A stretch of DNA of 64,000 nt, from assembly GCF_024721115.1 (NCBI RefSeq), contig NZ_JAMDHK010000001.1, positions 1 to 64,000 on the forward strand, given 5' to 3'. The translations under genes were made by a program, and so were the position numbers. Below are positions 41,855-53,081 of the stretch, piece by piece (within the stretch, counting starts at the first letter, position 1; the number at the start of each line of letters is the position of its first letter). Origin of the DNA: Salipiger pentaromativorans (GTDB taxonomy: Bacteria > Pseudomonadota > Alphaproteobacteria > Rhodobacterales > Rhodobacteraceae). The notes below the pieces were generated by a model. It saw only the letters and a list, made by a program, of their open reading frames with translations. It searched no databases and was not told the DNA's origin.

Positions 41855-41916
41855 GGCCGGCGTTCCAAGCGTGGACTGTAAGCGCCGCTTACACCCGAGC
41901 TCCTTCCTCAGAAACG

Positions 41917-41940
41917 CAAAAGCGGGCCCGTAGGCCCGCT
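41917..41940 (-). terminator. Intrinsic terminator at the end of the ten-gene operon
   Basis: An 8-bp GC stem (AGCGGGCC/GGCCCGCT, loop CGTA) is followed on the minus strand by TTTT. It lies 23 bp beyond the stop of the ABC ATPase gene. It may also slow rightward transcripts from the helicase gene. Confidence 0.75.
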
Positions 41941-41962
41941 CTCTCGCTCTCTCTGGGAAACC

Positions 41963-43045
41963 TCAGTCCCGCAGCACCGCCATGCTGCTTTCCTCCCAGC
42001 CGATCCACACCGGCGCCTCGCCCACCGACTGGCCGGTGTCGGCATCGACATAGGCCTTGAGCGTCGCGCCCTGCGCCTCTTCCACCAGAAGATCCAGCGC
42101 CATGCGGCTGCCGAGGAAGGTCTTGCCGACCACCCTGCCCTGCACCGCATTCGCCGTCGCGGGGCGTTCGATGTGAAAGCCCAGCCGTTCCAGCCGCACC
42201 GAAGCGGTGATCGGCGTGCCCGCCTGCGGCACCCCGCCCGGCGCGTGGCCGCGCAGGGTCTGGCCGAACCAGTCCATCACCACCGCGCCGCCCTCGGTGC
42301 CGCGCAGCTCGCCGGTGAGCAGGTTGGTCTCGCCGATGAACTCCGCCACGAAACGCGAGGCGGGATGGAAATAAAGCTCTTCCGGCGTGCCGTCCTGCTC
42401 CACCTTGCCCTTGTTCATCACCACGATGCGGTCGGACATGGTCAGCGCCTCCTCCTGATCGTGGGTCACAAAGAAGAAGGTCTTGTTCGTGCGGCGCTGG
42501 ATGCTTTTCAGCTCCTGCTGAACCTGCCCGCGCAGCTTGGCGTCGAGCGCGCCCAGCGGCTCGTCGAGCAGCAGAAGCGCCGGATCGGGCGCCAGAGCCC
42601 GCGCCAGCGCCACCCGCTGCCGCTGCCCGCCCGAAAGCTGCGCCGGATAGCGGTCGCCATAGGCGTCGAGTTCGAGAAAGGACATGATCTCGTCCTGACG
42701 GCGGCGGATCTCGGTCTTGCTCATCCCCTTCAGCTCGAGCCCGAAGGCGATGTTCTGCTTCACCGTCATATGCGGGAAGAGCGCGTAATCCTGAAACACC
42801 ATGTTCACCTGGCGTTTCTCGGGCGGCAAGCGGGTCACATCCTTGCCGTCCAGGATCACCCGGCCGCTCGACGGCTGTTCGAACCCGCCGAGGATGCGCA
42901 GCGTGGTGGACTTGCCGCAGCCCGAGGGGCCGAGGAAGGTCACGAACTCGCCCCGCGCGATGTCGAGGGTGAGGTCGTTCAGCGCAACAGTATCGCCGAA
43001 CTGCTTGGAAACGTTCTGGATGCGGACGAGCGCGTCGGAGGTCAT
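41963..43045 (-). CDS. Spermidine/putrescine-type ABC transporter ATPase (PotA-like)
   Basis: This 360-aa ATPase has Walker A GPSGCGKST, signature LSGGQRQRVALARAL and Walker B LLLLDEPLGALD, plus a C-terminal TOBE domain (about 270-360). It begins 3 bp after the permease stop and is the last of ten genes read from 52510. PotA-type ATPases power import of polyamines, and relatives import opines or other amine compounds. The exact ligand here is unknown. Confidence 0.92.
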   Translation of the reverse strand: MTSDALVRIQNVSKQFGDTVALNDLTLDIARGEFVTFLGPSGCGKSTTLRILGGFEQPSSGRVILDGKDVTRLPPEKRQVNMVFQDYALFPHMTVKQNIAFGLELKGMSKTEIRRRQDEIMSFLELDAYGDRYPAQLSGGQRQRVALARALAPDPALLLLDEPLGALDAKLRGQVQQELKSIQRRTNKTFFFVTHDQEEALTMSDRIVVMNKGKVEQDGTPEELYFHPASRFVAEFIGETNLLTGELRGTEGGAVVMDWFGQTLRGHAPGGVPQAGTPITASVRLERLGFHIERPATANAVQGRVVGKTFLGSRMALDLLVEEAQGATLKAYVDADTGQSVGEAPVWIGWEESSMAVLRD

Positions 43046-43048
43046 GGC

Positions 43049-43834
43049 TCAGGATTCCTTGTTCATGCGGCGGGTGAAACGCTCGGCCCAGACGCCGACG
43101 ACGGCGGTCAGGACCAGCGCCGCCGTGGCGATGGCGTTGATCTCGGGCGACATGCCCGATTTCAGCTTGGCGAAGATCAGCACCGGCAGGGTCGGCTCGT
43201 AGCCGCCGAGGAAGAAGGAGCGGACGAAATCGTCGAAGCTGAGCAGCAGGCAGAAGATGCTGGCCCCCATGATCGCGGGGATCAGATAGGGCAGCGTGAT
43301 GCGTAGGAAGGCGATCAGCGGGTCGGCGCCCAGATCCCGCGCCGCCTCGATCTGGCTTTTCGGCAGGGTCGAGAGCCGCGCCATCACCACCAGCACCACA
43401 AAGGGCACGTTGTGCACCGCGTGGGACCAGACGATGGCTCCCATGCCGGGCTCGATCCCGAGATAGCGCGCATAGATGCGGAAGGCGATGGCCGAGATGA
43501 TGCCGGGGATCAGCGCCGGCAGCACGGTCAGCCCGAAGATCGCCGCCCGGCCCCAGAACTTGCGCCCCTCCAGCAGCACCGCGATCCAGGTGCCGACAAA
43601 GACCGAGATCAGCGTCGACAGCACCGCGATCGCCACCGAATAGGCGAAGGCGGAAATCACCTCGGCATTCTCGAAGATGCCCATATACCACTCCAGCGTA
43701 TAGGAGCGGATCGGGAAACCGATGAACTTGCTGTCCTTGAAGCCCATCAGCACCATGAGCACCAGCGGCACGAAGACATAAGCCACAAAGGCCCAGTAGG
43801 TGCAGGAGAGCAGAATGCGGTTGCCGCGGGTCAT
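43049..43834 (-). CDS. ABC transporter permease (PotC-like)
   Basis: This 261-aa permease has six helices and the EAA loop IEAARDLGADPLIAFLRITL. The N-terminal VPLVLMVLMGFKDSKF is typical of PotC. The start at 43834 overlaps the PotB-like stop as ATGA. Confidence 0.92.
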   Translation of the reverse strand: MTRGNRILLSCTYWAFVAYVFVPLVLMVLMGFKDSKFIGFPIRSYTLEWYMGIFENAEVISAFAYSVAIAVLSTLISVFVGTWIAVLLEGRKFWGRAAIFGLTVLPALIPGIISAIAFRIYARYLGIEPGMGAIVWSHAVHNVPFVVLVVMARLSTLPKSQIEAARDLGADPLIAFLRITLPYLIPAIMGASIFCLLLSFDDFVRSFFLGGYEPTLPVLIFAKLKSGMSPEINAIATAALVLTAVVGVWAERFTRRMNKES

Positions 43835-44817
43835 TTTCTCTCTCCTTTGCGCAGGCCGGTCATGAATTTCTGGAACAGCGTCGTGAGGATCAGCGCCGCA
43901 AGGAACATGATCACCGCAAAGGCCGCCCCCGTGGGCCATTCATCGCCCGCGACATGGAAGAACCCGGCGATGGTCTCGGCAAAGACCGTGGTCGAGGGCC
44001 CGCCCAGCAGCACCGGCGTGGCGTAGAACCCCGTCGAGATCAGGAAGACCAGCGTACAGCCCGAGGAGATCCCCTCGATGGTGAGCGGCAGCGTCACCCG
44101 GCGGAACCGCGTCCAGGCGCCGGCGCCCAGGTCGGCCGCAGCCTCGTTCAGCGATTTCGGCAGCTTTTCCAGCGCCGAATAGAGCGGCAACAGCATGTAA
44201 AGCGCGGTCAGATAGACGATGCCGACGCCCATGGAGAAGCTTGTGTACATGAAGGGGATGGGCCGGTCGATCAGCCCCAGCCATTTCAGCGCGAGGTTCA
44301 CGGCGCCGGTATTGCCCAGCAGGATCATGATCGCATAGGTGCGCACGATCTCGCCCACCCAGAAGGGAATGAGCAGCATCAGAAGCAGCAGCATGCGGTT
44401 CTTGGGGCTGACATGGCGCGCGAGGAAATAGGCCACCGGATAGGTCAGGACCAGCGTGCAGAGCGTGAAGACGAAGGCGAACCCCAGCGTGCGGAAGAAC
44501 GGCATCCAGAACAGCCGGTCGCCGAAGAAGCGCAGGTAATTGTCGAAGGTGAAATGCTGCTCGGTGCCCGCGGCGACCGGATAGGCATCGGTCAGCGAGA
44601 CGCGGAGCATTTGCAGCATCGGACCCAGATGCTGGGTCAGCACCCAGAGCACGGGCAAGGCGGCAAGGATCAGGAACTGGCGGCGCGGCGTGGCGGTCGC
44701 AAGCTGCACCAGTGCCCGGTACGGCGCCCAGGAAGCCAGCCGGCCCCAGAAGGTGCGGTCGCTTCCCGTTGCCGGGACGGCACCGCGGTCTTCGCGCGCG
44801 GATGCGTCATAGGTCAT
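43831..44817 (-). CDS. ABC transporter permease (PotB-like)
   Basis: This 328-aa permease has an extended hydrophilic N-terminus (about 40 residues) before six helices, and the EAA loop LNEAAADLGAGAWTRFRRVT. It pairs with the PotC-like protein. The gap of 75 bp to the binding-protein gene contains a stem-loop that may set relative expression. Confidence 0.92.
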   Translation of the reverse strand: MTYDASAREDRGAVPATGSDRTFWGRLASWAPYRALVQLATATPRRQFLILAALPVLWVLTQHLGPMLQMLRVSLTDAYPVAAGTEQHFTFDNYLRFFGDRLFWMPFFRTLGFAFVFTLCTLVLTYPVAYFLARHVSPKNRMLLLLMLLIPFWVGEIVRTYAIMILLGNTGAVNLALKWLGLIDRPIPFMYTSFSMGVGIVYLTALYMLLPLYSALEKLPKSLNEAAADLGAGAWTRFRRVTLPLTIEGISSGCTLVFLISTGFYATPVLLGGPSTTVFAETIAGFFHVAGDEWPTGAAFAVIMFLAALILTTLFQKFMTGLRKGERK

Positions 44818-44846
44818 GGCAGACCCTTTCGAAAGGCGTGGCAGTG

Positions 44847-44875
44847 GCCCTGCCCGCGTCTTGCGCGGACAGGGC
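44847..44875 (-). other. Stem-loop in the potD-potB intergenic gap
   Basis: GCCCTG and CCGCG pair with CGCGG and CAGGGC around a TCTTG loop, with one mismatch between the two stem parts. Such hairpins after a binding-protein gene often stabilise or attenuate the message so that the binding protein is made in excess. Confidence 0.5.
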
Positions 44876-44892
44876 TTGAGGTCGTCTGGCGG

Positions 44893-45999
44893 TTACGCGG
44901 CCTTGATGGCTTCCACGGCCGGATCGACGAAGCCGTATTTCATCTCGTTGGCCTCGGCGCGGAAGAACTGGAGATTGGCCAGTTGCTCGTCCGGGAAAGA
45001 GGTCGACTTCTTCTCGAGATCGGTCAGATACTCCGACGCGCCCTTGTAGGTCGAGATGAACCCGCTCGCCTTGGTCATCGCCGCGCCGATCTCGGGATTG
45101 GCGAGGATGGCGTTCAGGAAGGTATAGGCGTTGTCCGGGTTCGGGCAGTTCTTGGCGATGTTGAACGTGTAGACAAAGCCGTAGGAGCCCTCTTTCGGGA
45201 TCGCCATGCCAAGCGGGAAGCCGTCGTTGATCAGCGCCGCCGCAGGGCCGTTCCAGCTATGGCCCAGCATGATGTCCTGGTTCACGAACATCTGCTGCAC
45301 CTCGGCGCCGCCATCGTAATATTTCCGCACCAGCGGCTTTTTCTCGATGAGAAAATCGCGGGCTTCCTTCACGATGGCCTCGGCCTTTTCCGGGTCGCCG
45401 AGATATTCGACCATATTGCCGTCATAGCCCTTCATCAGCATGACGATCGACATCATGTCCTGGATGATATAGGCGGTCTGGCCCTTGTATTTCTCGCTGA
45501 AGAGCGTGTCCCAGGTCTCGGCCTCTTCCGGCGTGACGTAATCGGTGTTGTAGGCCAGAACCTCCATGCCCGAGAGGATCGGCGCGCCCCATTTGTGGCC
45601 GTTGATCGTGGCCCAGTCGCTTTCCGAGAAGGTCGGGTTGATGTTGCCCCAGTTGCTCATCCGGTCGGTGTCGAGCGGCGCCAGAAGGTCGCTGTCGATG
45701 AATTGCAGGAAGCGGTGGCCCGCGACGGTCATGATGTCCACGGTCGGGTTCGGCGCCTCGGCGGCGAGCAGGCTGAACTGCTTGCCCTGGTCGTCCACCA
45801 GACGGATGTTGATCTTGATGCCGGTTTCGGCCTCGAACTGCTCCTTGAAAGCCGCCGGGACGAAATCGTTATAGGTCCAGATATTGACCTCGCCGCCCTG
45901 CGCGTGGGCACGGCGCAGATAGGCGGGGCTGGCAAGCGCCGCGCCGGTCATGGCGGCGGTGGTCAGCAGCTTCCGGCGGTTGAGAATGAGTTTGGTCAT
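44893..45999 (-). CDS. ABC transporter substrate-binding protein (PotD-like)
   Basis: This 368-aa extracellular binding protein has a Tat-like leader (NRRKLLTTAAMTGAALASPA) ending near RAHAQ. The mature part begins GGEVNIWTYNDFVPAAFKEQ, as in PotD/PotF and opine-binding relatives. GIKINIRLVDDQGKQ and GHSWNGPAAALIND are further family segments. It would capture the compound metabolised by the upstream enzymes and deliver it to the Pot-like permeases. Confidence 0.92.
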   Translation of the reverse strand: MTKLILNRRKLLTTAAMTGAALASPAYLRRAHAQGGEVNIWTYNDFVPAAFKEQFEAETGIKINIRLVDDQGKQFSLLAAEAPNPTVDIMTVAGHRFLQFIDSDLLAPLDTDRMSNWGNINPTFSESDWATINGHKWGAPILSGMEVLAYNTDYVTPEEAETWDTLFSEKYKGQTAYIIQDMMSIVMLMKGYDGNMVEYLGDPEKAEAIVKEARDFLIEKKPLVRKYYDGGAEVQQMFVNQDIMLGHSWNGPAAALINDGFPLGMAIPKEGSYGFVYTFNIAKNCPNPDNAYTFLNAILANPEIGAAMTKASGFISTYKGASEYLTDLEKKSTSFPDEQLANLQFFRAEANEMKYGFVDPAVEAIKAA

Positions 46000-46055
46000 T
46001 TTGCGCGTCTCCGTGTTGGATCGTTTTGTGTCGTCTGTTTGCCGTATCGTCGGGG

Positions 46056-47156
46056 TCACGACGCCGGTTCGGGCGTCTTCCGCAGCAGGCCGGTACGGGC
46101 GGCCTGGCACAGATCGTCGAGGCTGAAGCGGTCCAGCTCCAGCGCGTTCAAAAGCTCGTTTTCACGGGCGAAATCGCGGGCATACATGGCGGAAAAGATC
46201 TTGATCCCCGCTTCGTGCAGCTCCGCCGGGCGACCGGTGAGCCGCCCCAGAATGGCCGTCAGTTGCAGCCCGTAAGGCACATCCTCGGTGACATAGCGGC
46301 TGTCTGCGGTGGCAGGCCCGGTGCCGCCGTTGCCCTGCGCGTGCATCTGCTGGTTCATCTCCGAGATGGACGAGACCGGCACATGAAAGCTCAAGCTGAA
46401 ATGCTCGAAGATGGTCTTGGTCTTCAGCCCCAGCGCCTCGGCGATGGCCAGCCGCTCCAGATCCAGCGCCTCCAGCAGCGCCCCCACCTTGGGGGTGACG
46501 TTCTGGCCCTGGCTCCAGATCTCGCCCCGCTCCATGCGGGTGATGTTGCCAAGCGCGATGCCAAGGTGGTTCTGCGGGTTGAGATTGGATAGCGAGATCG
46601 CCAGCAGCCCGTCGCGCGGCACAAAGACATCGCCGAAGAGCATGGTGCAGATTGCACGGGCGCAGTCGCTGCGGGTCTCGGGCACGGTGCAGAGATCGAC
46701 CTTCTTGCGCACGGTGTTGACCTGCACGGAGGCGCCCTCGCCCCGCCGCCCGGTCACCACCGTGGTGCCCCAGGCGGTGACCGCCGCCTCGACGCCGCGC
46801 TCGGCGAGTTTCTGCATCAGATAGACGGCGCCCAGCGAGGCGTGCGAACTGATGAGGATGTGCTGGCCATCGCGGATATGCGGCGCCAGCGCGTCGAACA
46901 CCGCCTTGTGGCCATAGCCCGGCAGCGCGATCAGGAGGACGTCGTTTTCCTCGGCCAGTTGCTGCGCCGAGCTTGCCACGCGCGGATCGAACTGCGTTTC
47001 GATGGCCCCGGTGGCGGTCAGCAGCCCGTCCTGCAAAGCGGCGGTCGAGGCGCCCGAGGGCGACCACAGCATCGGGTCGTGGCCGTTCTGATGCAGCAGC
47101 GCCGCCGTGCCGAACGCGATGGAGCCCGCGCCCGCAATGCCGACCTTGGCGCTCAT
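46056..47156 (-). CDS. NAD/NADP-octopine/nopaline (opine) dehydrogenase-family protein
   Basis: This 366-aa protein has an N-terminal Rossmann fold with KVGIAGAGSIAFGTAALLHQ and a C-terminal octopine-DH helical domain. The conserved His of the family is in LNPQNHLGIALGN. Opine dehydrogenases interconvert an amino acid plus a 2-oxo acid with a secondary amine dicarboxylate. In a catabolic operon with an importer it could oxidatively split an imported opine-like compound. It overlaps the preceding AhpD-like gene as ATGA. Ketopantoate-reductase-like alternatives are less likely given the C-terminal domain. Confidence 0.82.
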   Translation of the reverse strand: MSAKVGIAGAGSIAFGTAALLHQNGHDPMLWSPSGASTAALQDGLLTATGAIETQFDPRVASSAQQLAEENDVLLIALPGYGHKAVFDALAPHIRDGQHILISSHASLGAVYLMQKLAERGVEAAVTAWGTTVVTGRRGEGASVQVNTVRKKVDLCTVPETRSDCARAICTMLFGDVFVPRDGLLAISLSNLNPQNHLGIALGNITRMERGEIWSQGQNVTPKVGALLEALDLERLAIAEALGLKTKTIFEHFSLSFHVPVSSISEMNQQMHAQGNGGTGPATADSRYVTEDVPYGLQLTAILGRLTGRPAELHEAGIKIFSAMYARDFARENELLNALELDRFSLDDLCQAARTGLLRKTPEPAS

Positions 47157-47740
47157 GCGGGCACCTCGTGGCGCACCGGATCGCCCAGCACATGCATCAG
47201 CCGGTTGGCCCAGCCGAACAGCGCCGCCGAAAGGATCAGGTCAAGAATTTCCTCGTCGCTGAGCCCCGCCTCGCGCAGCCCGGCCATATCCTCGGGCGTC
47301 GCATCGACCGGGCTTTCCGAGAGCTTGCGCGCAAAGTCGAAAATCGCGCGATTACGGGGGTTTAGATCGGCCTTCTCACCCTTTGCGAAAAGCTCTTCGG
47401 TGACAGACGTGTCCTTCTCCAGCTTGGCGTGGCGATCGGCATGCACGGCGGCGCAATAGATGCAGCGGTTGACCATGCTGGCGCCGATGGCGCCCAACTC
47501 GCGCTCGGCCCGGCTCATGCCGCCGGGGTCGTACATGATCGCGTTGAAGAGCGGCGAGCGCACCTTGAGGCTCTCCACGTCATGCGCCAGCGTCAGCACA
47601 TAGTCCGAGACCTTGGTGTTCGACGGCGTCACCTGAAGCGCATCGAGCTGCTCTTCGGTGGCCTCCTCCAGCTTCACCGGGGTGACACGCGGCTGCCAGT
47701 GCGGAACCTTGCGGGTGAACTTGTGAACGATCCGGCTCAT
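47153..47740 (-). CDS. AhpD-like peroxidase-related / carboxymuconolactone decarboxylase-family protein
   Basis: This 195-aa protein has an AhpD-type active site, CIYCAAVHADRHAKL (CxxC with a downstream His), in a helical CMD fold, preceded by RAERELGAIGASMVNR. Family members act as thiol peroxidases or reductases. It overlaps both neighbours by 4 bp, between another CMD-fold protein and the opine-dehydrogenase-like gene, which implies a joint role. It may protect against peroxide formed by the flavin monooxygenase, as a guess. Confidence 0.85.
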   Translation of the reverse strand: MSRIVHKFTRKVPHWQPRVTPVKLEEATEEQLDALQVTPSNTKVSDYVLTLAHDVESLKVRSPLFNAIMYDPGGMSRAERELGAIGASMVNRCIYCAAVHADRHAKLEKDTSVTEELFAKGEKADLNPRNRAIFDFARKLSESPVDATPEDMAGLREAGLSDEEILDLILSAALFGWANRLMHVLGDPVRHEVPA

Positions 47741-48216
47741 GCCGCTTCCCCTTTCATCAGGCGCAGCCCGGCGACGACACGGAGCTGATAGGCCATGAAG
47801 GCGCAAAGCTCGCAGAGCCGGACGATGTCCGCATCCGAGATCCCCGCCTCTTGCAGCGCCGCGATGTCCTCGGCGGCGATGTCGCGGGTCCGGTTGGCGG
47901 CCTTGTCGAAGAAGGCCACGACGGTGCCAAACCCCTCGGCCACCCCATCCTGCATCGGATCGGCCAGCGCGGCCATGGCCCCCGCCCTGTCGAGATAATG
48001 CGCGGCCAGCGCGGGCTCGCCGCCTGCGGTGGCCAGCCGTGCCGCGAGGGCTGCGCGCAGATCGTGCGGGAAGGCGCCGGGATCGCGCGGGCTCAGCACC
48101 GCGTTCTCAGCGGCCTGCGTCGCCTCCATGATCTTGGCGCGGGTCTCGGCGGCAGCCGCCACCGGCCCCATCGCGATGCCCGCCGCCTTCAGCGTCGTGC
48201 TGTCGAAAATGCTCAT
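47737..48216 (-). CDS. CMD-domain protein (Avi_7170-like) lacking the classic CxxC
   Basis: This 159-aa helical protein contains PGAFPHDLRAALAARLA and LQEAGISDADIVRLCELCAF, typical of CMD proteins that occur beside an AhpD-like partner. Its cysteines (LCELC) are near the C-terminus, and the usual ExxxxxCxxCxxxH active site is missing, so it may be a non-catalytic partner. It overlaps the monooxygenase gene upstream and the AhpD-like gene downstream as ATGA. Confidence 0.75.
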   Translation of the reverse strand: MSIFDSTTLKAAGIAMGPVAAAAETRAKIMEATQAAENAVLSPRDPGAFPHDLRAALAARLATAGGEPALAAHYLDRAGAMAALADPMQDGVAEGFGTVVAFFDKAANRTRDIAAEDIAALQEAGISDADIVRLCELCAFMAYQLRVVAGLRLMKGEAA

Positions 48217-49676
48217 GCCACCTGTCCTTCCGCCGGCTGCGGCAGCGGGGTCGGCTCCCACTCGCTGCCGTCAAGCTCGGGTGTTTCGTAATCCAGCATG
48301 TCCTGCCAGTGCGTTTCCAGATCCTCGGCGTAAAGCGTCGCCGCCATCGCCTTCGACAGCCAGGCCGCGCCCTCGGACACGCCCGGAATGTCGCCCGAGA
48401 CCTTCCCGAGACTCGCCGAGGCCCCGTAGTTGAAACAATAGACCTTACTAAGCCAGGGCACCTCGCCCGGCACCTTCTCGCGGAAGGTGAAATCCGGGTT
48501 GAGATAGGGGAAGCGTCCCAGATCGGCGTTTTCCTCACCCTCGGGCGGGGTGTAGACATCCTGCCAGAGCAGGATCTTGCCCGCCACATCGCCGAACTCC
48601 GTGCGCGCCATCGGGTCGATGACGAACCCGGTGCCGAGGATGACGAAATCCGCCACGTAAGAGGTGCCGTCGGCAAAGAAGACCTCCACCGCCTCGCCGC
48701 GCTGCTCGATCCTTGTCGTCGCCTTGCCGAAATGGAAATGCGCGTTCTTGTGGCGGCTTACCCGCAGGGTCGAGCCATGCGGCGGCGGCGTCTGGGTGGC
48801 AAAGCTGTACTGCATGAAGCGCCAGCGCCATTCGTCGGGCAGATCGGCGAAGCCGGCGGTGAAACCGAAGCTGCCGATGCCCATCATCTTGTTGATGGTC
48901 GGCATCTCCTTGCGGCGGATCACATGGCGGACCTCGGCGGCGCCGTGCTCCAGCGCCTCCGCCGCGTTGTCGACCGCCGAGGCGCCCACCCCGATCACCG
49001 CCACGCGCTTGCCTTTCAGCGCGTCGAAGTCGATCTCGTCGGCGCTATGCGCCCAGAAGCGGCGCGGCAAATCCTTGATGAAGCCCGGAATATTCGGCCC
49101 GCCGGTGCCGTCGCGCCCGGTGGCAAAGACCAGCTTGCGGCAGAGGATCGTGCCCTCCTCGGCGCCCGACACGGTGAGCCGCAGCAGATCGCCCTCGGGC
49201 GCGACCTTGTCGACCGAGACGCCGTTTTCCACCGGCACGTTCAGCGCCTTGCGATACCAGCGCAGGTACTCCATCCACATCGGACGCGGGATCTTGTCCA
49301 TCTTCTCCCACGCCTCGGTGCCGTGCTGGGCGCGATACCAGGCCTGAAAGGTCAGCGGGCCGAGGCCGAAGGCCGGGCCGGTCAGGGTCTTGGGCGAGCG
49401 CAGCGTCTCCATGCGGGCATAGTTGAGCCAGGGCCCCTCCAGACCCGCCGGGCTGCGGTCGAGCACGCGGATATTGCGCACGCCGCCGGTTTGCAGCCCG
49501 AGCCAGGCCACCATGCCGCACATGCCGCCGCCGATGATCACCACATCCGTCACGCCCTCCTGCGCGGGCACCCAGTCCTTGCCGGGATAGCAGAGGAAGG
49601 CAAGGTCTTCGTGGAGGCGGGCCTCAAGCGTGGCGAGGCCCTGCGCGTCGATCGGGGAAGTGTCATTCGTGTGCAT
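48213..49676 (-). CDS. FAD/NAD(P)-dependent flavin monooxygenase (FMO/Baeyer-Villiger-like)
   Basis: This 487-aa two-dinucleotide-binding-domain protein has the FAD motif VVIIGGGMCGMVAWLGL (about 45-61) and the NADP motif VAVIGVGASAVDNAAEAL (about 225-242), plus ATG-like FVILGTGFVID. The substitution of the usual BVMO fingerprint by FWAHSADEIDFDALKGKR places it among FMO-like enzymes of unknown substrate. It could N- or S-oxygenate the imported compound. It overlaps the first CMD gene by 4 bp and lies 39 bp after the MFS gene. Confidence 0.85.
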   Translation of the reverse strand: MHTNDTSPIDAQGLATLEARLHEDLAFLCYPGKDWVPAQEGVTDVVIIGGGMCGMVAWLGLQTGGVRNIRVLDRSPAGLEGPWLNYARMETLRSPKTLTGPAFGLGPLTFQAWYRAQHGTEAWEKMDKIPRPMWMEYLRWYRKALNVPVENGVSVDKVAPEGDLLRLTVSGAEEGTILCRKLVFATGRDGTGGPNIPGFIKDLPRRFWAHSADEIDFDALKGKRVAVIGVGASAVDNAAEALEHGAAEVRHVIRRKEMPTINKMMGIGSFGFTAGFADLPDEWRWRFMQYSFATQTPPPHGSTLRVSRHKNAHFHFGKATTRIEQRGEAVEVFFADGTSYVADFVILGTGFVIDPMARTEFGDVAGKILLWQDVYTPPEGEENADLGRFPYLNPDFTFREKVPGEVPWLSKVYCFNYGASASLGKVSGDIPGVSEGAAWLSKAMAATLYAEDLETHWQDMLDYETPELDGSEWEPTPLPQPAEGQVA

Positions 49677-49715
49677 ACGAATCGTCCTACAGGAAAAGCG
49701 TGTTGCGGTTCAGCA

Positions 49716-51053
49716 TCAAGCGGGCGTTTTTGCCCAATTCGGATGCAGATCGTCTATGTGATAGGCATGAGCGTGGCTGTGGCGGGGCCCATGCCCGGGA
49801 TGGTTGCGAAGATGCGGGTGATCGGCAGGCAGATCCGGATGGTCATGCGCACGCTCCAGCGGATCCTGCGCGGGCCAGACGCGGGTGGCGATGAGCGCGA
49901 CCAGCGCCGCCAGCAGCGAGAGCGACAGCAGCGCGTGTTCCAGCGTCACCACGCTCGCCAGCCAGCCCGCCAGCGGATAGGCCACCAGCCAGCCCGCGTG
50001 GCTGAGCGAAAACTGCGCGGCAAAGACCGCCGCCCGGTCCTCGCGCGCCGCCGAACGGGTGATGACCAGCCCGCCGGGGGTCAGCACCAGCGACGAGGCG
50101 AGCCCGAACGCCGCCCAGATCGCCAGCAGCCCGGCCATCGGCGGCTGCGGCAGCAGGGCGAAGACCGCGCCCACGGCGGCAAAGGCGAAGGCGCCGGTCA
50201 GCATCGACAGGCGTTCCGAGCTGCGGCGCACGAGGCGCGGCACCAGGATCGCCCCCGACGCGGCGCCGAAGCCGTAGCCTGCCATGAGGATCGGATAGAG
50301 CCCCTCGGCATCGCCCAGCCGGGCGCCCGCATAGACCACCGAATTGACCAGCACCCAGGCCATGGCCAGCGACAGCGCGAAGTTCAGCAGGAAAAGCCCG
50401 CGCAGACGGGGCGTGCGGGCATAGATTTTCATGCCGCGCAGGGCGCGGGAGACGAAGGGCCCCTTGCGCACCACATGGCCGCGTTCGGGAAAGCGTGTCG
50501 CCAGCAGGAAGGCGACCGAACCGAGGAAGGACAGCGCCGCGCAGAGGAACAACGCCTCGGGCGCGACCAGCTTCAGCACCGCCGCCGCGATCACCGGGCT
50601 CAGCACGGATTCCAGCGTATAGGCGATGCGCGACCAGGCGAGCGCCTTGGTATAACTCTCTTCCTCGGGCAGCACATCGGGGATCACCGACTGGAAGAGC
50701 GGCGTGAAGCCCGAGGCCAGCACGAAGAACAGAAAGGCCAGTGCCGCGATTTCCCAGGTCTGGGCGACAAAAACCATCGGCAGAAGCAGCAGCATCCGCC
50801 CGAAATCCAGCGCCACCATCGCCCCCTTGCGCGGCAGATGCGCGAGCAGGCTTTCGGCGATGGGCGCCAGCCCCACATAGGCCACCATCTTCAGCGCCAG
50901 GAGCAGCCCGAGGATGCGCCCCCCGGCCTCTGGCCCGCCGATCTCGTAGGCGGTGAGCGACAGTGCCACGGTCAGCAGCCCCACGGCGAGGAGCGAACAG
51001 ACCTGAGCGGCGAAGAGGCTGCGAAAGGCGCGATTGGCGAGGGGGCTTGTCAC
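49716..51053 (-). CDS. MFS transporter with histidine-rich C-terminal tail
   Basis: This 445-aa protein of 12 helices starts at a GTG (51053) that overlaps the upstream stop as GTGA. After the last helix comes a tail of about 45 residues with many histidines (AHDHPDLPADHPHLRNHPGH and RHSHAHAYH). A similar tail is known from nickel-resistance exporters of the NreB type, although other MFS proteins carry one too. It probably exports a metabolite or metal. The tail could bind Ni, Zn or Co. Confidence 0.85.
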   Translation of the reverse strand: MTSPLANRAFRSLFAAQVCSLLAVGLLTVALSLTAYEIGGPEAGGRILGLLLALKMVAYVGLAPIAESLLAHLPRKGAMVALDFGRMLLLLPMVFVAQTWEIAALAFLFFVLASGFTPLFQSVIPDVLPEEESYTKALAWSRIAYTLESVLSPVIAAAVLKLVAPEALFLCAALSFLGSVAFLLATRFPERGHVVRKGPFVSRALRGMKIYARTPRLRGLFLLNFALSLAMAWVLVNSVVYAGARLGDAEGLYPILMAGYGFGAASGAILVPRLVRRSSERLSMLTGAFAFAAVGAVFALLPQPPMAGLLAIWAAFGLASSLVLTPGGLVITRSAAREDRAAVFAAQFSLSHAGWLVAYPLAGWLASVVTLEHALLSLSLLAALVALIATRVWPAQDPLERAHDHPDLPADHPHLRNHPGHGPRHSHAHAYHIDDLHPNWAKTPA

Positions 51054-52510
51054 GATGCGAGGCTTTCCTGTGGGGTCTCGACCGGCGCGAAGCGGGCGGT
51101 GTGCACGTCCACGCGGTACTGCGACAAATAGTCTGACGCCTCGCGGGCCAGATTGTCCACCGCAGCGATGATCATATCTGCCTTGTCCTCAGACATCAGC
51201 GCCGAGAAGTTCAGCCGCACCCAGCCCGGTTTGGCCACCTCCTCGCCATGGGCGATGGCGTCGAACATCGCCTCCGAGGCGGCCTCGTCGAGCCCCAGAA
51301 GCCGATGCGCATAGGACCCGGCGCAGGCACAGCCTCCACGCGCCTGGATGCCGTAGACATCGCTGAGCAGCCGGGTGAAGAACTGGTGATGCACCAGCCC
51401 GCCCTGCCCGTCGCGCACCCGGAAGGAAAAGATCGGCAGTGCCTTCGGCCCCTGCAGCCCGAGAATCTCGAGATGCGGGTTCTTGCGCCAGACCGCCTCG
51501 GCCCGGGCACGCAGCGCCGCATGGCGGGCGTCGAGCCAGTCCTGCCCCAGCGCCTCCTTGACCAGCATGACAAGCGCCGCGCGGATGTCGCCGATCACAT
51601 TGGGCGTGCCGCCTTCCTCGCGCTCGGCGAGGCTGGTGGAATAGGCGTGCCCCCAGGGCGAGACATAGCTCACCGTACCGCCGCCGGGCAGCGTGGGCGT
51701 GGCGCGGCGCGCGATGGCATCGCGCACGATCATCACCCCCGAGGCGCCGGGCCCGCCGGGAAACTTGTGCGGCGAGAAGACGATGGCGTCCTTCTGCGCG
51801 TCGCTGCCCTGCCCCATGTCCATGGCGACATAAGGCGCGCCGCCGCCGTAATCCCAGACCGCAAGCGCGCCGTGGCGCTTGAGCAGCCGCGTCACGGCAT
51901 CGCTGTCGGTCAGGATGCCGGTCACATTGGAGGCCGCCGAAAAGCTGCCGACGATCAGATCGGCGCCCTGCGCCGCCGTCAGCGCCTGTTCCAGCAGGCC
52001 CAGATCCGGCCCGCCCGCGGCGCTCTCGGCGATCTCGATCACCTCGGCGCCGCTTTCGCGCCAGGGCAGCATGTTGGAATGATGTTCGTAGGGGCCGATC
52101 AGCACCACCGCCCGGCCACCCCCGGCCACCAGCCCGGCAATGTCCAGCAGCCCCACCACCCGGTTGATCGCCGCCGTCGAGCCCGAGCCGGTGAAGACCA
52201 CGCACGTCCCCGGCCCCGCGCCCGTCATGCGGGCGATCTCGGCCCGGGCGGCTTCGCGCAGACGGGTCGAGAACCCGCCGCAATAGGAGGCCTGGGTGTG
52301 GCTGTTGGCATACCAGGGCAGCACCCGGTCGCGGATGAAATCCTCCACCTGCGCCAGCGCGCGACCCGAGGCGACATAATCGGCATAGATCAGCGGACGG
52401 GGCCCGAACGGGCCGTCGATCTCGGCCCCGTCGCCGATCAGGCCGGCGCGTAGCCAGTCGGGAAGGTCGAGACGCTTGAGCGATTGCGCGAAGTCGTCGA
52501 GGGGGGCCAT
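51050..52510 (-). CDS. Class V aminotransferase-fold PLP enzyme (cysteine desulfurase/selenocysteine lyase-like)
   Basis: This 486-aa fold-type I PLP enzyme has the Schiff-base lysine in VFSPHKFPGGPGASG, an early YADYVASGRAL, and YEHHSNMLPWRESGAEVIEI as in NifS/CsdA relatives. The loop RGGCACAGSYAHRLLG holds the cysteines at the position of the desulfurase nucleophile. It is longer than SufS/CsdA (about 400 aa), so a different C-S or C-N lyase is possible. It is the first gene of the ten-gene leftward run and is divergent from the Lrp regulator. Confidence 0.85.
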   Translation of the reverse strand: MAPLDDFAQSLKRLDLPDWLRAGLIGDGAEIDGPFGPRPLIYADYVASGRALAQVEDFIRDRVLPWYANSHTQASYCGGFSTRLREAARAEIARMTGAGPGTCVVFTGSGSTAAINRVVGLLDIAGLVAGGGRAVVLIGPYEHHSNMLPWRESGAEVIEIAESAAGGPDLGLLEQALTAAQGADLIVGSFSAASNVTGILTDSDAVTRLLKRHGALAVWDYGGGAPYVAMDMGQGSDAQKDAIVFSPHKFPGGPGASGVMIVRDAIARRATPTLPGGGTVSYVSPWGHAYSTSLAEREEGGTPNVIGDIRAALVMLVKEALGQDWLDARHAALRARAEAVWRKNPHLEILGLQGPKALPIFSFRVRDGQGGLVHHQFFTRLLSDVYGIQARGGCACAGSYAHRLLGLDEAASEAMFDAIAHGEEVAKPGWVRLNFSALMSEDKADMIIAAVDNLAREASDYLSQYRVDVHTARFAPVETPQESLAS

Positions 52511-52575
52511 GGAAGCTCCGATCCTGAGATAAGTGGATCAAAGTATGACACCCGTAATACCGAAAATGTTGATCT

Positions 52576-52592
52576 AATTTCACCTTCAAATT
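52576..52592. promoter_or_regulatory. AATTT-N7-AAATT dyad, candidate Lrp/AsnC operator
   Basis: This AT-rich inverted repeat lies in the 109-bp gap between the divergent PLP-enzyme gene and the Lrp-family gene, 28 bp upstream of lrp. Lrp-type regulators favour such AT-rich dyads. The match is by eye only. Confidence 0.4.
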
Positions 52593-52619
52593 CCTAATAT
52601 TCTATCATATGAACGAAGA

Positions 52620-53081
52620 ATGGCGATAAAGCTCGATAATATTGATCACCGCATTCTGGAAGAGCTGCAACGCGACTCGTCGCAATCCCAGCGCGCGCTC
52701 AGCGAACGGGTGGGCCTGTCGCAAAACGCCTGCTGGCGGCGGCTCAAGGCGCTGGACGCGGCGGGGGTGATCCGCAACCACACGGTGGTGCTCGACCGCC
52801 AGCAGCTTGGTGCCGGGCTGGTGGTCTTCGTGATGATCAAGACGCGGCACCATTCGGCAGCCTGGCTGAAGCGGTTCCGCAAACATGTCTCCTCGATCCC
52901 CGATGTGATCGACTTCTTCCGCATCGGCGGGGAATACGATTACCTGCTCAAGATCATCACCCGCGACATGGTGAGCTATGACGAGGTCTATAAAAAGCTC
53001 ATCGAAGAGGTCGAGCTGGAAACGGTGACCTCCTATTTCGCCATGGAAGCCATCGAGGAACAGCGGCCGATCCCGATGTGA
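52620..53081 (+). CDS. Lrp/AsnC-family transcriptional regulator
   Basis: This 153-aa protein has an N-terminal HTH (IDHRILEELQRDSSQSQRAL and VGLSQNACWRRLKAL) and a C-terminal RAM/AsnC ligand domain (DVIDFFRIGGEYDYLLKIIT). It is divergent from the ten-gene run and is very likely its regulator, responding to an amino-acid-like compound. Confidence 0.92.
   Translation: MAIKLDNIDHRILEELQRDSSQSQRALSERVGLSQNACWRRLKALDAAGVIRNHTVVLDRQQLGAGLVVFVMIKTRHHSAAWLKRFRKHVSSIPDVIDFFRIGGEYDYLLKIITRDMVSYDEVYKKLIEEVELETVTSYFAMEAIEEQRPIPM

Follow-up and report, generated by a model that had tools for sequence, protein, structure and literature searches.

Opine catabolism encoded by Ti plasmids (occ/noc) begins with import through an ABC transporter and continues with oxidative cleavage of the secondary amine of the compound (PMC4575208; this and the other papers given by PMC number were consulted in part), the cleaving enzyme there being a flavin complex (OoxAB/NoxAB). 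Arthrobacter sp. 1C, the source of the opine dehydrogenase of solved structure 1bg6 (CENDH/ArODH), has an NAD+-dependent dehydrogenase and grows on N-carboxyethyl phenylalanine as sole carbon source (PMC4575208), and the 1bg6 enzyme is described as broad in specificity (PMC7438024). According to PMC4575208, by 2015 a single study had addressed opine catabolism at the molecular level in such non-Agrobacterium isolates. Here we describe an operon of Salipiger pentaromativorans, at positions 41,963 to 53,081 of a 64,000-nucleotide stretch of DNA (assembly GCF_024721115.1, contig NZ_JAMDHK010000001.1, positions 1-64,000; the window), that encodes an NAD(P)-dependent opine dehydrogenase (ODH) together with an ABC importer. 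Import and catabolism around an opine-dehydrogenase core is well supported as the class of function. The specific reading that we favour is held tentatively, at a little below an even chance: an opine-type, N-substituted amino acid would be taken up and cleaved in an NAD(P)-dependent reaction, and the modules that handle the amino acid so freed would be interchangeable.

The ten genes encode, in the direction of transcription, a pyridoxal-phosphate (PLP) enzyme, an MFS transporter, a flavin monooxygenase (FMO), two CMD proteins (CMD1 and CMD2), the ODH, a solute-binding protein (SBP), two permeases and an ATPase. Like the Ti-plasmid systems, such an operon would import its substrate through an ABC transporter and then cleave a secondary amine oxidatively, and opine-binding proteins such as MotA have the fold of the Salipiger SBP. 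The predicted cleaving enzyme here is an NAD(P)-type ODH rather than a flavin complex, however, and it is accompanied by the FMO, the CMD pair and the PLP enzyme. Searches of one open-licence paper library, only partly aimed at these genes, turned up no named pathway that contains them together, which agrees with what the original prediction had said.

An opine dehydrogenase within a conserved gene block

Oxidative cleavage of an opine-type secondary amine by the ODH is the best-supported step of the predicted pathway. The nearest solved structure to this protein is 1bg6 (E 3e-29, residues 6-343 aligned), with which it shares the PF02317-type assignment, and its H197 and D292 align with the His and Asp of the 1bg6 dyad and are invariant in 67 of 67 sequences. 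A His-Asp dyad is named as common to opine dehydrogenases (PMC10787698). It is this alignment and invariance, taken together with the growth of the 1bg6 organism on N-carboxyethyl phenylalanine, that argues for cleavage. Because the two enzymes are distant, the substrate of 1bg6 cannot be transferred to the Salipiger ODH, and the consulted parts of the sources describe no such operon for the 1bg6 enzyme.

The neighbours of the ODH gene were followed through 66 loci, 61 of them from one ODH-seeded scan of genome contigs and five being regions chosen from 236 plasmid records; these are not independent draws, because they were found through the ODH and many come from close kin. A gene was scored as present when a tblastn match of a set identity spanned half or more of the query inside the flank examined, and as absent when it lay past the flank or the contig end. 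On this basis the eight-gene block of FMO, CMD1, CMD2, ODH and the four importer genes is kept in 57 of the 66 loci, the SBP gene in 65, and all ten genes plus the Lrp gene in 32, while the helicase gene downstream of the operon is found in only six. The block, which the original prediction had allowed might be missing as a unit from relatives, is a conserved unit and not a chance neighbourhood. Nine loci fall short of the eight genes. Six of these run into a contig end (L070, L076, L079, L080, L088 and L091), and L100 carries a CMD1-sized open reading frame in place that falls under the match threshold; the other two, L041 and L086, are taken up below. Only the rear part of the SBP gene, beside an IS3 transposase gene, is left in Aminobacter sp. 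MSH1 (L039:3415-5499), where the operon may be disrupted; this locus was nonetheless scored SBP-positive.

The block occurs in bacteria of both sea and soil, and taxa with it include Salipiger, Roseobacter, Paracoccus, Sinorhizobium, Rhizobium and Geminicoccus. Gene order in the Rhodobacterales loci is mostly that of Salipiger, and in several Rhizobiales loci the importer genes come first or the ODH gene is divergent. Among genomes of the same order, any ODH match occurs in 32 of 292 and one of at least 43% identity in 22 (Salipiger's own included); at E 1e-40, the ODH is found in 6 of 385 genomes of the class and 4 of 398 of the phylum (again with its own), and the matches from these wider draws all belong to Salipiger's own class. 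A larger set of 80 loci adds 14 that are mostly more distant; L133 and L135 were kept in it although they have no usable gene map (L133 has no ODH by the count's threshold), and the far ODH relatives L116-L119 (22-27% identity where labelled), which lie in other, TRAP-linked clusters, were excluded. In a quick ODH tree, which has long branches and no bootstrap, the operons of one assembly named Enemella evansiae (L083) and two named Deltaproteobacteria (L080 and L082) group with Rhodobacterales, and these assemblies are likely mislabelled or contaminated.

At the Salipiger locus itself, the layout described in the original prediction is confirmed by the measured positions (Table 1): all ten leftward open reading frames are present, the gaps from the PLP gene to the ATPase gene are -4, 39, -4, -4, -4, 56, 75, -4 and 3 bases, which gives the five four-base overlaps and the largest gap of 75 bp that had been claimed, and a divergent Lrp/AsnC gene is separated from the PLP gene by 109 bp. 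Pfam and NCBIfam agree with the protein families originally assigned, with the refinements that the PLP enzyme is class V and desulfurase-like and that CMD1 falls below family cut-offs. The intrinsic terminator fared less clearly. The stretch 3' of the ATPase gene has a fold of -33.5 kcal/mol (z -5.5 against 200 shuffles), but a consensus terminator scan did not list this hairpin and returned 10 terminator-like sites against a shuffle mean of 8.8, which is no excess; since the scan passed it over, the hairpin is called terminator-like from its fold.

Table 1. Positions of the operon features in the window and of partner genes in related loci (L-numbers).
Feature	Position	Strand	Basis
PLP enzyme, class V, cysteine-desulfurase-like, 486 aa	51050..52510	-	PF00266 E 5e-37
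MFS transporter, conserved His-rich C-tail, GTG start	49716..51053	-	PF07690 E 5e-24
FMO, class B-like	48213..49676	-	Pyr_redox_3 and Lys_Orn_oxgnase matches
CMD1, CMD-like, without AhpD CxxC site	47737..48216	-	TIGR04029 E 5e-21, below cut-off
CMD2, AhpD-type, peroxidase-related	47153..47740	-	TIGR01926 200.5 bits, cut-off 81.8
ODH, NAD(P)-dependent	46056..47156	-	PF02317 E 1e-33, 116.7 bits, cut-off 30
SBP, periplasmic, PotD fold	44893..45999	-	PF13416
ABC permease, PotB-like	43831..44817	-	PF00528; NF007044 E 4e-55, below cut-off
ABC permease, PotC-like	43049..43834	-	PF00528; NF007047 E 1e-46, below cut-off
ABC ATPase, PotA-like	41963..43045	-	PF00005; TIGR01187 353.1, cut-off 355.6
Lrp/AsnC regulator, CyuR/DecR-like	52620..53081	+	similarity to E. 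coli DecR
Divergent promoter region, conserved boxes	52511..52619	.	alignment of 37 sequences
Terminator-like hairpin 3' of ATPase gene	41905..41962	-	RNA fold
DSBA-family protein, L093	L093:2166-2756		
Asp/Glu racemase, L093	L093:8404-8946		
URO-D-like proteins near ODH	L086:15298-16242; L115:3915-4934; L131:4725-5702		

Importer, flavoenzyme and CMD pair

All four importer subunits belong to the families of the PotABCD polyamine importer, and the predicted model of the SBP (pLDDT 85.9) has PotD structures as its nearest neighbours, with opine-binding MotA structures showing the same fold lower in the list (from rank 33 on). PotD W255 and D257, positions of its binding site, are nevertheless lost, aligning with V and T in the Salipiger SBP; over 22 aligned rows, the former position is never Trp and the latter is T, S or N in every one. 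Moreover, the SBP scores 71.4 bits against the PotD/PotF profile NF007048 (cut-off 582), and no NCBIfam cut-off is reached by the four importer proteins among the matches listed. Because the Asp of PotD is not kept, a polyamine is an unlikely substrate, and the amine or polyamine import of the original prediction is weakened. A catabolic operon for polyamines or polyamine conjugates, with true Pot import and N-hydroxylation of the amine by the FMO, would account for the family and fold of the importer, for the presence of putrescine N-hydroxylase 7us3 among the fold neighbours of the FMO, and for the XRE-cupin regulator of some loci, which weakly resembles PuuR (31 bits, cut-off 211). It was downgraded on the loss of the PotD positions, the ten genes include no polyamine transaminase, oxidase or amidase, and we consider it very unlikely.

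The FMO has no match among Protein Data Bank sequences at E 0.001, and its predicted model (pLDDT 77) is nearest in fold to the PvdA, SidA and KtzI N-hydroxylases (TMq about 0.55), its neighbours being ornithine and putrescine N-hydroxylases. Among 37 orthologues of the MFS transporter, 36 carry at least 8 His in the final 60 residues, and the remaining one (L064) reads on into the FMO; the transporter is not found in 29 of the 66 loci, some of which are cut by contig ends. These two proteins bring to mind staphylopine-type metallophore systems, in which an opine dehydrogenase, an MFS exporter and an ABC importer occur together. CntK, CntL and CntM are enzymes of those systems (PMC7438024). 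By analogy, the Salipiger ODH and FMO might make an N-hydroxylated, opine-type chelator that the His-tailed transporter exports and whose metal complex the importer retrieves. The His tail, the likeness of the FMO to siderophore N-hydroxylases, the importer and a racemase gene in 9 of the 66 loci would all suit such a function. Pfam and NCBIfam find no nicotianamine-synthase-like gene among the ten genes, however, the regulator is CyuR/DecR-like, the KBL/TDH partner genes described below look catabolic, the exporter is not found in the loci just counted, and no TonB-dependent receptor is listed in five annotated loci, whose tables are incomplete; a metallophore is thus a long shot.

CMD2 has the residues E81, C93, C96 and H100 in 65 of 65 sequences, in the arrangement E-x11-C-x2-C-x3-H of the AhpD site, whereas CMD1 shows any CxxC in only 1 of 63 and matches no Pfam family at E 0.001. 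As CMD2 has the full site and CMD1 lacks it, our guess is that the two associate in a heteromer, one half being active and the other inactive.

Two further FMO genes lie elsewhere in the Salipiger genome. A paralogue of 40% identity (G000:C38, L109:239-12985) stands with genes for an ErtD-like hydantoinase (468 bits, cut-off 600), an Asp/Glu/hydantoin racemase, a gamma-glutamyltranspeptidase, an AmaA-like oxidase and a family-3 binding protein, in what amounts to a second orphan cluster. The third FMO, 41% identical to that of the operon (G000:C22, L110:5155-13271), is found with an NMT1-type binding protein, a questin-oxidase-like protein, an amidohydrolase and a PhzG-like flavoprotein. Ergothioneine utilization was rejected for the operon, the ErtD-like hydantoinase standing near the paralogue on another contig, and the ergothioneine-like compounds raised by the original prediction find no support at the Salipiger locus. 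Two other candidates were not retained: S-(2-succino)cysteine catabolism, whose compound name occurs in none of the 20 listed out of 14,307 papers, and homarine catabolism, a lead from the literature only.

Cysteine and threonine among regulator and partner genes

C396 of the PLP enzyme aligns with the catalytic Cys of CsdA, the protein has the EHH and HK motifs common to SufS and CsdA, and every one of 39 sequences has C77, H143, K249, C394 and C396. Removal of sulfur from a cysteine-like product is predicted for it on these grounds; a separate SufS, above the TIGR01979 cut-off, is encoded elsewhere in the genome. In both Geminicoccus loci (L091 and L092), the PLP position is occupied by a non-homologous, Cds1-like PLP enzyme whose gene overlaps CMD1 by 4 bases; that of L092 comes near but stays below the cut-off of the L-cysteine desulfhydrase profile NF052478 (538.4 bits against 600, E 8e-162), and that of L091 is 92-93% like it. 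A Cds1-like gene also lies in L115, between RidA and an ODH relative of 44-45% identity.

The regulator points the same way. Its identity to E. coli DecR (CyuR) is 45% (142 bits), as against 34% to Lrp (82 bits) and 23% to AsnC (45 bits), and for the Lrp protein encoded at the Rhizobium locus L093 the identity to DecR is 41%. The Salipiger operon thus resembles E. coli CyuR (DecR/YbaO) with cyuPA in having a regulator of this type beside a predicted cysteine-consuming enzyme, and differs from it in that CyuA is another kind of enzyme than the class V PLP protein. According to PMC11408624, CyuR depends on cysteine. An alignment of 37 promoter sequences, that of Salipiger included, contains a conserved box beside the Lrp start (TCATATGAnnnAA / TCATATGA), which is a candidate regulator site, and a conserved GTGTCAT box nearer the PLP gene, most positions of both being common to at least 80% of the sequences. 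A second DecR-like Lrp gene of the genome (G000:C22, L147:7421-7876; 41% to E. coli DecR) is divergent from genes for a uroporphyrinogen methyltransferase, a sulfite/nitrite reductase and a PAPS reductase, and likely encodes a regulator of sulfur assimilation.

Partner genes of the relatives bring in threonine. Over the 80 loci, PLP is counted in 42, MFS in 41, KBL in 14, MATE in 13, TDH in 12, a DSBA-family protein in 10, a racemase in 9 and CDS1 in 3, and KBL undergoes at least seven state changes on the quick ODH tree. Eleven Rhodobacterales-type loci have KBL and TDH next to the operon; all eleven keep the PLP gene as well, and nine (not L068 and L075) also have the XRE regulator. In three Rhizobiales loci KBL lies 3' of the ODH gene, and in L130 a threonine ammonia-lyase gene is 3' of or beside it. 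Two KBL and two TDH proteins were checked, and each exceeds an NCBIfam cut-off. In nine Rhizobiales loci (L093-L098, L100, L102 and L104) a DSBA-family gene separates FMO from CMD1, and the SBP gene has an Asp/Glu racemase gene beside it. Ten loci have neither FMO nor CMD2, and a URO-D-like protein is encoded within a few kb of the ODH in three of these (L086, L115 and L131; two of them were checked with Pfam) and in none of the other seven; the URO-D-like genes sit as if substituting for FMO and CMD. The clues in these relatives point to a freed amino acid that resembles cysteine or threonine, and in the Salipiger genome it would be cysteine-like.

This mixture of modules is also what would be expected of a generalist opine scavenger, in which the ODH takes many N-carboxyalkyl amino acids, as the described breadth of the 1bg6 enzyme (PMC7438024) would allow, and each lineage adds genes for the Cys, Thr or Asp/Glu that is freed, making PLP, KBL-TDH, threonine ammonia-lyase and racemase alternatives to one another and not parts of one pathway. 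Simple opines would not need the FMO, CMD1 and CMD2, however, which occur in most of the 66 loci, and the PLP, MFS and Lrp genes accompany the whole block in 32 of them, with PLP kept in the eleven Rhodobacterales-type KBL loci; we rate the generalist view as rather unlikely. The operon might also serve detoxification and not growth, by removing a reactive cysteine or threonine adduct, thiol or carbonyl in kind, together with export through MFS or MATE. This would fit the AhpD-type CMD2, the frequency of the two exporters, the RidA gene of L115, and the title of a DecR paper in the reference list of PMC11408624, which mentions L-cysteine detoxification in E. coli. It would be odd, however, for a toxic compound to have a binding-protein importer of its own, and this idea strikes us as very unlikely.

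Several observations weigh against the reading that we favour, uptake and cleavage of an opine-type amino acid, or against its sulfur component. The main objection to an account based on cysteine only comes from the threonine-degradation genes: threonine or glycine, and not cysteine, is what KBL/TDH and threonine ammonia-lyase suggest, and one freed amino acid does not explain both sets of clues, although a family of Cys and Thr opine substrates, or a broad ODH, would fit both. The PLP enzyme is far under every cysteine desulfurase cut-off (99.6 bits against 475.1 for TIGR01979), and 28 of the 66 loci, some at a contig edge, show no class V PLP gene, so that sulfur removal is not core. As to the FMO, its nearness in fold to N-hydroxylases, on a model of middling quality, weakly favours N- over S-oxygenation, and S-oxygenation, our first idea, lost ground in the fold search. 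For the thiolated amine of the original prediction, a link to a sulfur amino acid does emerge, through the regulator and the PLP slot and not through the FMO. Within its genome, the operon's regulator ranks first against DecR (135 bits), with the second Lrp close behind (123 bits), and the promoter boxes do not match the CyuR motif of PMC11408624 in a comparison made by eye, which does not help the CyuR analogy. Two loci, L041 and L086, lack FMO and CMD, and among the 14 further loci the same SBP is found in only six, others having a tripartite, a Dpp-type or no recognized transporter nearby. Finally, the metabolic direction is not proved by having an importer and an exporter alone.

A proposed route and its meaning

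In the route that we propose, the PotD-fold SBP, the two permeases and the ATPase would import the compound, as their families suggest, and the ODH would use NAD(P)+ and its His-Asp dyad to oxidize and hydrolyze the secondary amine, by analogy to its nearest solved relative, giving an amino acid and a 2-oxo acid. A lineage-specific module would then degrade the amino acid, the class V PLP enzyme of Salipiger presumably desulfurating a cysteine-like product. The FMO may oxygenate N, as its fold favours, or S, either in the substrate itself or in some part of it, and CMD2, perhaps with CMD1 as inactive partner, may clear peroxide or a reactive intermediate. Export of an excess or toxic product would fall to the MFS transporter, and the Lrp protein might sense a cysteine-like effector and switch the operon. 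The dedicated pathway for import, oxygenation and cleavage put forward in the original prediction thus survives as uptake and catabolism with an ODH core, in view of the conservation, the dyad and the catabolic partners, and is weakened in its amine or polyamine part. A bolder version is a hitherto undescribed alphaproteobacterial route for a class of environmental compounds that has gone unrecognized, the opine-type derivatives of amino acids with a beta-thiol or beta-hydroxy group (cysteine, threonine), in which an NAD(P)-type opine dehydrogenase cuts and an N- or S-oxygenating flavoenzyme and a split AhpD pair of one active and one inactive half do the processing. On this version, which seems doubtful to us, the URO-D-like protein of some relatives without FMO and CMD would mean that two chemistries exist for the same group of compounds.

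The kind of first step, opine-type catabolism, is known, and the gene set is new. If the favoured reading is right, this would be the first cluster known to us in which a catabolic NAD(P)-type opine dehydrogenase is paired with its own importer. The repeated swaps of cysteine and threonine modules make the question of the substrate directly testable with a few synthetic opines. Since the block occurs in Salipiger, Roseobacter, Paracoccus, Sinorhizobium, Rhizobium, Geminicoccus and others, its substrate is probably a common compound of marine and soil environments, whose identification would reveal a so far unseen component of dissolved organic nitrogen, and perhaps of dissolved organic sulfur.

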